From: a virus
Virus record (IMG/VR): IMGVR_UViG_3300033388_000803
Span: 1 to 64,000 of that record
Reading direction: 5' to 3' (one strand)
DNA length: 64,000 nucleotides
Below are positions 3,744 through 58,728 of the stretch, piece by piece (within the stretch, counting starts at the first letter, position 1; the number at the start of each line of letters is the position of its first letter). Under the pieces are notes generated by a model. The model did no database searches. It saw nothing but the letters and a program-made list of their open reading frames with translations, and was not told where the DNA came from. A program made the position numbers and the translations under genes.

Positions 3744-4465
3744 TGGCAAAAATATCATCGTATCCAATACAGTCTGTAATAGTAGGAACTGATAAAGTTA
3801 TAGGTAGTGATGCTATAAACGCCATGGCAACAAAGAATTTTACTTTTGATGATATTGCTATATTTTTAAACACAAACAATAAAATAGAAAGTAACGCTTT
3901 AAGGTATCAATATCAAAACTGGAACACAGGAGATGTAAGAAGATCGGGAACTATATCTTTTGCTAACTCAGGAGCAGGAACACCAGCCTTTTCTTCTTTA
4001 ACAACTTTTATGTTAAGTAAGTTTATGTTAAAATCAAACATAGACATATCTTCTTATTACTCAGTGCCATTAATATCTTCAGTAGTTTTAATTTCACAAA
4101 CAGATAATCCATCAAACTTTGGTGTATATGATTGGAATTCAGCAGTGCAAGATGGGGTAGAGACTGATTTTTTTGACATTGGAGTAACATTTAAAGCGGG
4201 TGCTGGTAACCTACAAAACGATAAAGATTATTTCATATCTTTGCTAACGTATGGCGGAGCAGTTTCTGGAGATAAAAACTATGTGTTTTCTCAGAATGTA
4301 GCTGCTAATCCTTGGGTAATAAATCATGGATTAAATAAGTATCCGTCAGTATCTGTTGTTAACTCAGCGTTAGAAACAGTATACGGAGATGTAGAGTATG
4401 ATAGTTTAAACCAAGTAACAATAACTTTTAACGGCCCACAAACAGGAAAGGCCTTTTTTAACTAA
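3743..4465 (+). CDS. Short tail-fibre-type protein
   Basis: It encodes 240 aa. The N-terminus KISSYP...GTDKVIGSDA...TKNFTFDDIAIFL resembles the virion-anchoring start of many marine phage fibre proteins. The C-terminal 65 residues (WVINHGLNKYPSVSVV ... VTITFNGPQTGKAFFN) match the small beta domain found at the end of phage appendage proteins. The middle lacks repeats. A related anchor motif (IIGTD ... TF.V..I) opens the fibre at 11389. It probably forms a short fibre or an adaptor for the long fibres. Confidence 0.75.
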   Translation: MAKISSYPIQSVIVGTDKVIGSDAINAMATKNFTFDDIAIFLNTNNKIESNALRYQYQNWNTGDVRRSGTISFANSGAGTPAFSSLTTFMLSKFMLKSNIDISSYYSVPLISSVVLISQTDNPSNFGVYDWNSAVQDGVETDFFDIGVTFKAGAGNLQNDKDYFISLLTYGGAVSGDKNYVFSQNVAANPWVINHGLNKYPSVSVVNSALETVYGDVEYDSLNQVTITFNGPQTGKAFFN

Positions 4466-55722: not shown

Positions 55723-56226
55723 TTATAAGTCTGTATATATTTTGTGTGCGTCTTTGAAGACGTATGCAGTCTTCTCTCTTCTGTATTTAAAGTCTACTGT
55801 CTCAATATGCATTATTAACATTTTTTCTTCAGGAGGATATCCTATTTCTTCTGCTGCTCTTTCAACTACAAGTCTTCCCATATCATTATCCCCATCATCT
55901 CCTTTCCACTCTAATTCTCCCTCAGCATATATGTCTTTAGTTTTACTCCACTTAATTAGTTTTTTCAAGAAGAATATTGTCCATTCTTTACCTTGATATG
56001 TTTTTTCATATCCCATACATCTGAATACTCCATAAGTTCCTGAATCATCATTATAGTTTTTAATCTCGAATCCACACCATATTGATGGAAACTCTCTTCT
56101 TTGGTCTCCGAATTCAAATTCACTGTCATGTCTCTCATCTGTTATTCCTTCCCATTCTTTTAATTCTTGTGTGGTAAACGGTCTGTTTGTTCTTAACTGT
56201 CCGTTCCAATCTGTATTGTATCCCAT
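55723..56226 (-). CDS. 167-aa acidic Trp-rich protein, unknown function
   Basis: The frame is open back to 56316, but the start is set at Met 56226 because the upstream part coincides with a structured leader found in two other places. The product begins MGYNTDWNGQLRTNRP, has a GDQRREFPSIWCGFEIKNY region, a WTIFFLKKLIKW helix, and an acidic GELEWKGDDGDNDMG stretch. No catalytic family recognised. Confidence 0.65.
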   Translation of the reverse strand: MGYNTDWNGQLRTNRPFTTQELKEWEGITDERHDSEFEFGDQRREFPSIWCGFEIKNYNDDSGTYGVFRCMGYEKTYQGKEWTIFFLKKLIKWSKTKDIYAEGELEWKGDDGDNDMGRLVVERAAEEIGYPPEEKMLIMHIETVDFKYRREKTAYVFKDAHKIYTDL

Positions 56227-56244
56227 TTGTTTAGTTTTAATTAT

Positions 56245-56302
56245 GACACTATTGTCTTCTACTACGAAATCCCCACTACTTTCATAGTGAGGCATCTCGC
56301 AG
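56245..56302 (-). ncRNA. Structured leader RNA, copy C
   Basis: Minus-strand RNA: outer 6-bp stem (56302-56297 with 56267-56262), inner 8-bp stem (56292-56285 with 56278-56271) containing a U-G at the third pair, then a second hairpin GACA-AUAG-UGUC (56256-56245), 18 bases before ATG 56226. The sequence from the second hairpin to the start is almost identical to copy A. Outer and inner stems differ in sequence from copies A and B but keep pairing. Confidence 0.65.
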
Positions 56303-56317
56303 AACAAACAACACAAA

Positions 56318-56524
56318 TTAACGATGTAAATCTTTTATATCTGTAATATCTATAGTTCCGTATTTCTTCTTAACTCTTTTTAATTGAGACATTGCATTTG
56401 TATACTCTTTGTACTCATCTTGAGTGCAACTTTTAAACATGCTCCTCGAGATCTTTTTGTGTATGGTTTGGTATGTGTAGTACCAATGCTGTATATTCTT
56501 TTCTAACTCTTCAAATTCTGTCAT
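56318..56524 (-). CDS. 68-aa helical protein
   Basis: A small, charged, helical protein (FEELEKNIQHWYYTYQTIHKK, shortened; LKRVKKKYGTIDITDIKDL). It lies between the 163-aa gene (5-base gap) and leader C. Function unknown. Confidence 0.6.
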   Translation of the reverse strand: MTEFEELEKNIQHWYYTYQTIHKKISRSMFKSCTQDEYKEYTNAMSQLKRVKKKYGTIDITDIKDLHR

Positions 56525-56529
56525 TTTAT

Positions 56530-57021
56530 TTATTTTAAATTAGTAATTAGTCTAAATTGATAATCGTAATCATCTACAAGAGAACAATAATATTTATCTC
56601 CATTCTCTTCTGTATCAGAATACTCTTCTAAATCTTCTCCGTACTCTTTGTCTAGCCATTCTATTTGCTCTTCATATTGTTTCTTTGTGAGCATTGCACA
56701 ATCATTTACATTGCATAGAATCATAAACGCATAAGCATCTTTTATTTCCCATACTTGATAGCTACCACAATTATCGTCATAGGCATCCCAAAAGTATCCG
56801 TCTCCATCTACTCCCTTGTCTATTTGTGCATACTCATCAGAGTATCTTGTTACATCTTTTGCGTCTCCATTAGCATTGCTCAATGCTCTTTTATATGCCC
56901 ATTTGAATGCTGATTTTTTGTATGCAAATTGTTTTGTATCTATTCCATTTTCTGAAGAATATCCATCTCCGTTCCATGTATCGATAACTATATATTTTTT
57001 AATGTTGTTTTTTAGTCTCAT
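56530..57021 (-). CDS. 163-aa acidic protein, unknown function
   Basis: Its ATG overlaps the preceding stop by one base. It begins KKYIVIDTWNGDGYSSENG, contains FKWAYKRALSNANGDAKDV, and an acidic EYGEDLEEYSDTEENGDKYY region. The repeated Gly-Asp-Gly-Tyr motifs are notable. Acidic early proteins such as this may mimic DNA or bind host proteins, but nothing specific supports that here. Confidence 0.65.
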   Translation of the reverse strand: MRLKNNIKKYIVIDTWNGDGYSSENGIDTKQFAYKKSAFKWAYKRALSNANGDAKDVTRYSDEYAQIDKGVDGDGYFWDAYDDNCGSYQVWEIKDAYAFMILCNVNDCAMLTKKQYEEQIEWLDKEYGEDLEEYSDTEENGDKYYCSLVDDYDYQFRLITNLK

Positions 57022-57260
57022 TATTGTAATTGGTTTTCGTTAATATAATCTACTATATCATCCCATATTCCCTCTAACTTCTCTGTCACATCGTCATTGT
57101 TTAGCATCAGTTTTGCTATCTCAATGTTGTGGTATCTAGGTGTACTTCTGTCCTCTGCTTCAGGGCAATCTGTCTCCCAATAAGTCACTCCAAGAACATT
57201 GTTCTTGCTTAACTCATAACAAGTATATTTAGTTTGTGTGTAGCTGTTTGTTGTAATCAT
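57021..57260 (-). CDS. 79-aa acidic protein, unknown function
   Basis: The start is set at 57260, after an AATTAAATTAAAT leader and two hairpins; a frame-compatible start at 57359 would overlap the upstream gene by 20 bases and translate the hairpins. The sequence has TKYTCYELSKNNVLGVTYW and an acidic C-terminus. Function unknown. Confidence 0.6.
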   Translation of the reverse strand: MITTNSYTQTKYTCYELSKNNVLGVTYWETDCPEAEDRSTPRYHNIEIAKLMLNNDDVTEKLEGIWDDIVDYINENQLQ

Positions 57261-57277
57261 GTTATTTAATTTAATTG

Positions 57278-57327
57278 GTATCTTATGATACTGACGAGCA
57301 TTTCTGCTCGTTTCGGACATTGAGTCC
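57278..57327 (-). ncRNA. Tandem-hairpin leader, copy D (related layout)
   Basis: Three successive minus-strand hairpins: GGAC/GTCC (57327-57315), ACGAGCA-GAAA-TGCTCGT (57311-57294, 7 bp with a GNRA-type tetraloop), and GTATC-ATAA-GATAC (57291-57278). The last has the same AUAR loop and the same distance (17 bases) to the ATG as the second hairpins of copies A-C. The first hairpins do not match the A-C stem sequences. Confidence 0.5.
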
Positions 57328-57339
57328 TCATCAGAGTAT

Positions 57340-57609
57340 CTAGCTATTGTAATCCTCAAGCTGAGTCTTGAATCCCTCTAAGCATTCTAATAGTCCATGC
57401 TTGTCGTACCCCATTTTCTCTAGCCCAAAGTATGCTTTAACACCTTTGAGAGTGTAATGTCTGTGTGGCTTTAATCCCCTTATAAACATCTTTAGTTCTG
57501 CGATAGATAATACTAGATTGTACCATCCTTTATTACCATCTCTACCATTGATGTTCATCGGCTTGTCAAAGTCCTTACCGAATTGTGTATCTCTTACTGT
57601 GTATTCCAT
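57340..57609 (-). CDS. 89-aa protein, unknown function
   Basis: It follows leader copy A. The sequence (RDTQFGKDFDKPMNINGRDGNKGWYNLVLSIAELKMF, split; then KPHRHYTLKGVKAYFGLEKMG) looks like a compact alpha/beta protein. The start context after AACAAATGGAATAC is nearly the same as that of the gene at 56226 (AACAAATGGGATAC). Confidence 0.65.
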   Translation of the reverse strand: MEYTVRDTQFGKDFDKPMNINGRDGNKGWYNLVLSIAELKMFIRGLKPHRHYTLKGVKAYFGLEKMGYDKHGLLECLEGFKTQLEDYNS

Positions 57610-57627
57610 TTGTTATTGTTTAATTAT

Positions 57628-57683
57628 GACACTATTGTCGTCTACCTAGAAAACCCCAATGCGATGAGCATTGAGGCACTAGG
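57628..57683 (-). ncRNA. Structured leader RNA, copy A
   Basis: Minus-strand RNA: outer stem CCUAG/CUAGG (57683-57679 with 57649-57645), inner 10-bp stem (57677-57668 with 57662-57653) with a U-G pair, loop UCAUC, then second hairpin GACA-AUAG-UGUC (57639-57628), 18 bases before ATG 57609. Core length 39 bases, equal to copy B. Confidence 0.7.
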
Positions 57684-57695
57684 AGTGAGACTAGA

Positions 57696-57998
57696 TTAAG
57701 CTAGAGTGATAGCTAGATTAACTGTTCTTGATGGGGTACCGTTAATCTTTGTTGCTAGGTGTAGGTAACCACTATTACCAACAATCCATTTAGGAGAATC
57801 AGCATCTTCCTCATCGATATTGAATACCTTGTTAAGTTTAAAAACTAAATCAGATGTGTAGTCTGCTTGTATTCTTAATGCTGCTCTGTCTCCATCCCTA
57901 CTACAATCGTAATCCGTTATTGATATTGAGTAAAACTTATCTAGTGTTTCAGTTGATAATACCTTGTCTAAGGTTTGGATAATTTCTATTTTTGTCAT
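57696..57998 (-). CDS. 100-aa protein, unknown function
   Basis: It lies between leaders B and A. It begins TKIEIIQTLDKVLSTETLDKF, then GDRAALRIQADYTSDLVFKL and a beta-like C-terminus (YLHLATKINGTPSRTVNLAITLA split). A mixed alpha/beta small protein without recognised motifs; an early gene by position. Confidence 0.65.
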   Translation of the reverse strand: MTKIEIIQTLDKVLSTETLDKFYSISITDYDCSRDGDRAALRIQADYTSDLVFKLNKVFNIDEEDADSPKWIVGNSGYLHLATKINGTPSRTVNLAITLA

Positions 57999-58019
57999 CG
58001 TTTGTTTGTTTAATTTGTG

Positions 58020-58074
58020 GAGGATTATTCCTCTACCTAGAAAAGCCCATAGCGATTAACTATGAGCTACTAGG
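58020..58074 (-). ncRNA. Structured leader RNA, copy B
   Basis: Minus-strand RNA: outer stem CCUAG/CUAGG (58074-58070 with 58040-58036), inner 9-bp stem AGCUCAUAG/CUAUGGGCU (58068-58060 with 58052-58044) with one U-G, then a second hairpin GAGGA-AUAA-UCCUC (58033-58020), 21 bases before ATG 57998. Both hairpins differ in sequence from copy A but conserve pairing and the AUAR loop. Confidence 0.7.
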
Positions 58075-58086
58075 AGTAAGGTAAGG

Positions 58087-58275
58087 TTAGATGTTATCGT
58101 AAACCATGTCTTCATGCATCAAGACTATCTTGGTTTGTAGTCCTCTCATTGCCTGAAATTCAGGAGTATTGTAGTGAATATTATCATCTCTCATATCTCT
58201 GATTCTATCTGCGATAGTCATTCTTAGTGTTTCTATCTCGTTTAACGTCCATTCGGTAGTGATTTCTCTAGTCAT
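58087..58275 (-). CDS. 62-aa helical protein, first gene of the early operon
   Basis: The start is set at 58275 because an upstream in-frame ATG (58308) would overlap the promoter itself. It is helical (WTLNEIETLRMTIADRIRDMRD, shortened; FQAMRGLQTKIVLMHEDMV). Proteins of this shape are common first genes in phage early operons; role unknown. Confidence 0.65.
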   Translation of the reverse strand: MTREITTEWTLNEIETLRMTIADRIRDMRDDNIHYNTPEFQAMRGLQTKIVLMHEDMVYDNI

Positions 58276-58305: not shown

Positions 58306-58338
58306 CAAATATATATAAATTAATTATTATAAAACAAA
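58306..58338 (-). promoter_or_regulatory. Early operon promoter (Bacteroidetes type)
   Basis: Minus-strand TTTG (58338-58335) and TATATTTG (58313-58306), separated by 21 bases. It precedes the first gene of the leftward operon and follows the dyad-rich hub. Confidence 0.72.
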
Positions 58339-58462
58339 TAAATAGACATCTAATTTTTAATGTATTGATTGTCAGTCAGTTACACAGGTGTGTTTCACTG
58401 CTTTTTGTTTGCTATTTGCACACTTCGATGGGGTATAAAGACGCAGTTCTTTGTCCCTTAAA

Positions 58463-58476
58463 ACAATGATCATTGT
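58463..58476. promoter_or_regulatory. 14-bp perfect palindrome, candidate operator
   Basis: ACAATGATCATTGT is perfectly self-complementary, as expected for a site bound by a dimeric HTH protein. It lies about 125 bases upstream of the leftward promoter. Confidence 0.55.
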
Positions 58477-58569
58477 ATTTTATGCTCTCATATCTAGTGG
58501 AATGTGGGGTAATGTAGGGGAAAATCCCCCTGAATCTGCACAACTATGCAGTTTGAAATGGGAACGATG

Positions 58570-58604
58570 CTGGACGCAGCCAGTACGACACTGGACGCAG
58601 CCAG
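58570..58604. repeat. Tandem 14-mer CTGGACGCAGCCAG, 21-bp period
   Basis: Two identical copies (58570-58583 and 58591-58604). Each is a dyad (CTGG/CCAG around ACGCAG). The 21-bp period puts both on the same face of DNA, two helical turns apart, typical of cooperative operator sites; as RNA they would be two identical 6-base-loop hairpins. Confidence 0.7.
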
Positions 58605-58728
58605 ATGAAAACAAAAAGCCAAAAAAATCCGAGTGCGTCAGCCATATCTAGTACCCCCCCTAGTGAAAAAAATCGGTTTTAATTTTAAAAAAAATGCTGT
58701 GTAGTGTAGTATTATCCTCAACCTCTAA

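Follow-up and report, generated by a model that had tools for sequence, protein, structure and literature searches.

Hairpins that act in cis on early phage transcripts include the HK022 put RNAs and lambda nut/boxB, which lie near operon starts. RNAs of the put type stand near the early-operon promoter, before the terminators that are overridden, and HK022 put is a two-stem RNA that alters RNA polymerase. RNase III sites in phage early RNA and hammerhead ribozymes in phage operons are both already known. In the early region of T7, RNase III sites are where the polycistronic transcript is cut into mono- and dicistronic mRNAs; the cut at R1.1 breaks a single bond to give products of 47 and 13 nt, and most of the hairpin is thereby left on one side of the cut (PMC4858673). 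For hammerheads clustered in phages and prophages, the proposed role is to divide long transcripts into mRNAs of gene length (Perreault et al. 2011, PMC3088659). The purpose of phage hammerheads has stayed unproven since their discovery.

The window (the whole stretch of DNA analysed, 64,000 nucleotides) comes from an IMG/VR virus record of 64.3 kb. Its portal protein has at least 600 relatives in IMG/VR, and named relatives infect Flavobacterium, Cellulophaga, Maribacter, and Tenacibaculum. The phage group carrying the element described below consists of abundant, mostly uncultured, aquatic phages of Bacteroidota. On the minus strand, a promoter-like sequence (~58306-58338) is followed by a run of small genes, which we refer to as the early operon from its position (Table 1). 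The promoter-like pattern is not rarer than chance genome-wide and is weak taken alone. No Pfam or PHROG family was found for the early gene products tested, which therefore give no hint of function.

Table 1 Features of the early operon in the window.
Feature	Position	Strand	Remarks
Bacteroidota-type promoter-like sequence TTTG-N-TATATTTG	58306-58338	minus	Pattern; just 5' of the operon's first gene
Operon's first gene	58087-58275	minus	Stop codon just upstream of element B
Element B	58020-58077	minus	R2 covariance model match, 54.1 bits
Element B, outer stem	58070-58074/58036-58040	minus	
Element B, inner stem	58059-58068/58044-58053	minus	
Element B, 3' UUU	58041-58043	minus	
Element B, AUAA hairpin	58020-58033	minus	
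Gene B	57696-57998	minus	100 aa; without Pfam/PHROG family
Element A	57628-57686	minus	R2 covariance model match, 56.2 bits
Element A, outer stem	57679-57683/57645-57649	minus	
Element A, inner stem	57668-57677/57653-57662	minus	
Element A, 3' UUU	57650-57652	minus	
Element A, AUAG hairpin	57628-57639	minus	
Gene A	57340-57609	minus	89 aa; without Pfam/PHROG family
Type-I hammerhead ribozyme motif	57287-57340	minus	Complete core; between gene A and the next gene
Hammerhead, stem I	57335-57340/57287-57292	minus	6 bp
Hammerhead, CUGAUGA	57328-57334	minus	
Hammerhead, stem II	57315-57327	minus	4 bp
Hammerhead, GAAA	57311-57314	minus	
Hammerhead, stem III	57295-57310	minus	6 bp
Hammerhead, U-C	57293-57294	minus	Predicted cut between 57293 and 57292
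GUAUC-AUAA-GAUAC hairpin	57278-57291	minus	Possible 5'-terminal hairpin of the downstream product once the predicted cleavage has occurred
Gene behind the hammerhead	57021-57260	minus	79 aa; homologue in L145, 75% identical, behind a hairpin element
Element C	56245-56302	minus	R2 covariance model match, 53.3 bits
Element C, outer stem	56297-56302/56262-56267	minus	
Element C, inner stem	56284-56292/56271-56279	minus	GAAA loop
Element C, AUAG hairpin	56245-56256	minus	
Gene C	55723-56226	minus	167 aa; homologue in L219 (50% identical, 158 aa) behind a hammerhead

The original prediction described structured leader RNAs before genes A, B, and C on the minus strand. All three lie where it placed them, and they fold far more stably than dinucleotide shuffles (z of -4.8, -5.4, and -5.8 for A, B, and C); for each of them, none of 200 shuffles reached the stability of the native fold. 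The parts of the fold were recovered as well. The outer stem is CCUAG/CUAGG in both A and B, and C has CUGCGA/UCGUAG; the inner stems, of 9-10 bp, have a different sequence in each copy, and a U.G pair occupies the same place near the internal loop in all three. Second hairpins, GACA-AUAG-UGUC in A and C and GAGGA-AUAA-UCCUC in B, end 18-21 nt before the ATG. In C, the minimum-energy fold instead pairs the AUAR segment with upstream sequence, a structure that competes with the second hairpin. The "leaders" are intercistronic units without promoters of their own, a Bacteroidota -7-like TAnnTTTG motif being found upstream of 5 of 51 elements, which is about background.

Related phages were collected for the covariance-model search that the original prediction had proposed. 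An initial pattern scan gave two relatives with A and B copies, and a protein search with gene A returned distant genes only, without the element. When a small conserved protein encoded next to the start of the operon served as the anchor, 53 loci were obtained from IMG/VR (loci are denoted here by L numbers). A structure descriptor was applied before a covariance model, R2, for which 31 aligned cores served as the seed; an earlier model, R1, which spanned 128 positions and took in AT-rich flanks, was dropped for the core-only R2 because it was too sequence-driven. R2 had 63 matches in 658 kb, of which 45 were distinct, and adding a second, sequence-based scan brought the number of distinct members to 60. 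The E-values from R2 are approximate, and its seed members necessarily match it. All R2 matches in the protein-anchored loci were on the operon strand.

Many further members thus exist in related phages, and their stem changes are compensated. The claim of a cis-acting RNA family that covaries and is read from the minus strand therefore withstood the refuting conditions set by the original prediction. The inner stem was 96% paired in the R2 set, with double changes at six of its nine pairs and a covariation score of 0.511, compared with 0.211 ± 0.014 for shuffled and 0.05-0.15 for slid controls. In the second set, which was found by a DNA-pattern scan with no protein anchors, it was 97.8% paired, a less independent value since many members had some of their hairpin letters set by the pattern itself. 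The predicted outer stem is real and looser than the inner stem. In a fixed register it is paired in just 54-64% of cells, with the register shifting between members, but the permutation tests support it: matched halves formed 4.79 bp compared with 3.73 ± 0.21 bp when permuted, and a second test gave 5.15 bp compared with 4.24 ± 0.14 (maximum 4.83 in 3000). Its length is 4-7 bp, and it is absent or imperfect in L234, L251, and two members in L096.

The near-invariant letters are a UUU in the 3' strand of the asymmetric internal loop and, after it, an SGUGGUAG-like segment into which the outer stem runs; the loop's 5' side varies from 0 to 4 nt. In most members a U.G takes up one of two adjacent positions in the inner stem, and apical loops are of the GNRA or UMAUC type (GAAA, GAGA, GCGA or UAAUC, UCAUC, UAGUC). 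The element lies in most cases 9-22 nt past the previous stop codon, and the distance from it to the ATG is mostly 29-38 nt with a second hairpin and 24-27 nt without; the start region after it is A-rich and unstructured. Genomes carry several copies, before unrelated small genes. Neither the window nor its relatives gave an Rfam gathering match for the element, and no convincing element was found in the named isolates (Flavobacterium elemo, Cellulophaga, Tenacibaculum, and Maribacter phages). A 19-bit match in Maribacter phage Panino was rejected as it lies inside an annotated coding sequence. The sole hairpin from Genome_contigs, on the Leptospiraceae MAG contig L269 (4168-4203, minus strand), shares this inner hairpin and has a run of seven U's after it; it looks like an ordinary terminator and was set aside.

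The AUAR-type hairpin was proposed as a shared part of the leaders. It is a separate covarying module present in about two thirds of them: of 40 distinct element leaders, 27 have a second hairpin and the rest have none, compared with an expectation of 1.5 from shuffling (6 at most). Its stems are of many different complementary sequences, with loops that are mostly AUAR or CUAW. In two diverged phages, a third conserved segment, GGAGGUAC...CUUAGAACG...AUCUAU, replaces the AUAR hairpin between element and ATG (L136 3190-3300 and L144 1560-1670, both minus; L261 from 422, plus). This segment had no credible Rfam match.

The interval covered by the original prediction (56227-58086) also holds a hammerhead ribozyme motif that was absent from its list. 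With a CUGANGA ... GAAA ... UH core and three stems, of which stem I is open, the motif is by sequence a type-I hammerhead, and self-cleavage is predicted. The GUAUC-AUAA-GAUAC hairpin uses the 3' strand of stem I and is mutually exclusive with the uncut ribozyme; its loop is of the same type as those of the second hairpins of A, B, and C. The loci contained 35 distinct hammerheads, window copy included, compared with 0 in reversed sequence (985 kb), almost all of them just 5' of a start codon. This count comes from a descriptor without over-extension of stem II; an over-extending version lost true cases and gave 24. Two more hammerheads were found in the second set. Across the 37, the core is constant and all three stems vary, a given pair being formed by as many as four Watson-Crick combinations; the descriptor demands pairing, and only the stem diversity and the reversed control carry weight.

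The window copy was unmatched by Rfam RF00163, and relatives G011, G055, and G057 scored 25-31 bits (E 1e-5 to 2e-7), below the gathering score of 34, which is a curator's threshold and not a defining property. Because neither element nor hammerhead gave Rfam gathering matches, function cannot be assigned by family. Like the hammerheads of Perreault et al. 2011 (PMC3088659), those found here have cores between phage genes, some of them very near start codons, with several per operon. Two core-pattern matches in Flavobacterium phage elemoA 7-9A (L222, MT497017.1; 17318-17341 and 19089-19112, minus strand) were left out of the count, the one examined having an imperfect stem III. The hammerhead-bearing contig L088 also carries a Flavo-1 RNA (RF01705) above gathering score at 4128-4199 on the minus strand.

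Element and hammerhead replace each other before homologous genes. When downstream proteins were clustered, 6 of 18 gene families contained both kinds of member, one phage having its gene behind the element and another behind a hammerhead. Gene C, behind an element in the window, is 50% identical over 158 aa (E 2e-49) to a gene behind a hammerhead in L219, and the window gene behind the hammerhead is 75% identical over 76 aa (E 1e-36) to one behind an element in L145. Likewise, an element-preceded gene in L122 shares 66-68% identity over 57-58 aa with hammerhead-preceded genes in L121 and L181. The parts further downstream are also shared. A module (GGCA-AUAG-UGCC-UUAAUUAA; GGCAAUAGUGCCUUAAUUAA) lies 3' of elements in L132 and L144 and 3' of a hammerhead in L146. 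AUAR loops and an A-rich start region can follow either RNA, and spacing to the ATG is alike for both. In L003 (1300-1440), gene A is missing and element A is fused directly, at a shared TAGA, to a hammerhead with a much enlarged stem III. Another hammerhead with an enlarged stem III occurs in L170.

This alternation suggests that element and hammerhead both serve to separate genes on one long transcript, and on account of it a processing site is now better supported among the functions originally proposed. The hammerheads here differ from those of Perreault et al. 2011 (PMC3088659) in sharing slots and a downstream hairpin with a second RNA family, and conserved contexts can therefore be compared gene by gene. 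A natural swap of hammerhead and element before homologous genes turns the question of the purpose of phage hammerheads into a direct experiment.

The working model that comes closest for the element is the processing of T7 early RNA. Like the T7 R sites, the elements are hairpins between genes of an early polycistronic transcript. They differ from these sites in having a shorter and sometimes missing lower stem, conserved UUU/GUGGUAG letters, a pairing with the AUAR hairpin, and an alternation with hammerheads, and cleavage by RNase III is only putative. The structured RNA family, its intercistronic placement, and its sharing of slots with hammerhead motifs are established. Cleavage of the element, its place, and its agent are what we infer: we give about an even chance to the reading that A, B, and C are intercistronic cut sites for an endonuclease that do the hammerhead's job. 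The early polycistronic transcript would be cut between cistrons at the element hairpin by host RNase III or a similar enzyme, probably on the U-rich 3' side of the hairpin. The geometry is in keeping with such a cut: the upstream mRNA would keep a protective 3' hairpin just past its stop codon, and the downstream mRNA would begin with a hairpin and have its start site open. The element would then be a trans-processed functional equivalent of the hammerhead in the same kind of slot.

It should be noted that a shared slot with a ribozyme does not prove a shared function. Set against the geometry of RNase III sites, with roughly two helical turns in stems on both sides of an internal loop, the elements have an upper stem of 9-10 bp and a lower stem of 4-7 bp that is sometimes missing. 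Total helix length is marginal for a classical site because the outer stem is short, sometimes absent or imperfect, and this short stem is the main structural weakness of the RNase III-type reading. The 3' tail UUUUSGUGGUAG is conserved beyond the needs of outer-stem pairing and could instead be a single-strand protein site. The near-invariant UUU/GUGGUAG, the conserved U.G, and the GNRA or UMAUC-type loops do resemble specific recognition, and copies recur before unrelated small genes of one genome, as would suit a cis-acting site with a bound phage or host protein, the original prediction's main idea, that would coordinate the translation or the stability of early mRNAs and involve no cleavage. 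We consider such a site possible though rather unlikely, since it leaves unexplained a self-cleaving motif in the same slot, before homologous genes and with the same downstream hairpin. The conservation of UUU and GUGGUAG, together with the fixed position of the U.G, exceeds the needs of a generic hairpin. This makes it very unlikely that the element is a passive structural insulator, acting with no partner and no cut to keep the start region open and to block exonucleases or read-through ribosomes, even though the constant stop-element and element-ATG spacing and the A-rich, unstructured start region would suit that role.

Elements resemble put and nut RNAs as hairpins on early phage transcripts, and intrinsic terminators as GC-rich hairpins followed by U's just past a stop codon. 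A terminator-like or antiterminator-like RNA that sets the passage of RNA polymerase into the next gene would be in line with these features, with the two-stem precedent of HK022 put, and with the terminator-like hairpin and seven U's of L269. We regard it as quite unlikely. The U-tract of 3-4 nt, which is followed by the conserved SGUGGUAG, contrasts with the 8-9 U's of these phages' own terminator-like hairpins, and identity with an intrinsic terminator was rejected on this point; moreover, unlike in a terminator, the outer stem encloses the U's and the start of the next gene comes after a G-rich segment. No promoter separates the element from the next ATG, which follows after only about 30 nt, and the lack of upstream promoter enrichment weakens a promoter reading as well. 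Put sites stand at operon starts, whereas the elements are intercistronic with several per operon, and a put-type identity was rejected by location. The occupation of hammerhead slots and the internal loop with its invariant letters would also fit an undescribed self-cleaving ribozyme as an alternative to the hammerhead. This is highly improbable, given the few conserved unpaired letters, the variable 5' side of the loop, and the lack of any Rfam ribozyme match; known small ribozymes have larger conserved cores. The broader proposal of either a new self-cleaving ribozyme class or a dedicated phage nuclease site, freely replaced by hammerheads, strikes us as distinctly doubtful. If true, it would mean an early-transcript cutting system of interchangeable catalytic and non-catalytic RNA modules.

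No paper on the element family or its alternation with hammerheads was found in the open-access literature, and both the family and the interchangeability appear new. With the element comes an RNA family so far uncatalogued, whose members are spread across these abundant aquatic phages of Bacteroidota. Beside the early operon, the plus strand of the window encodes a GroEL-like and probably a GroES-like phage protein (59316-60932 and 61338-61640). A long non-coding stretch 5' of the operon (58380-58720), which contains repeated GGCTGCGTCCAG and a GGGGGGG run and has counterparts in L003 and L004, is possibly an origin or regulatory region.
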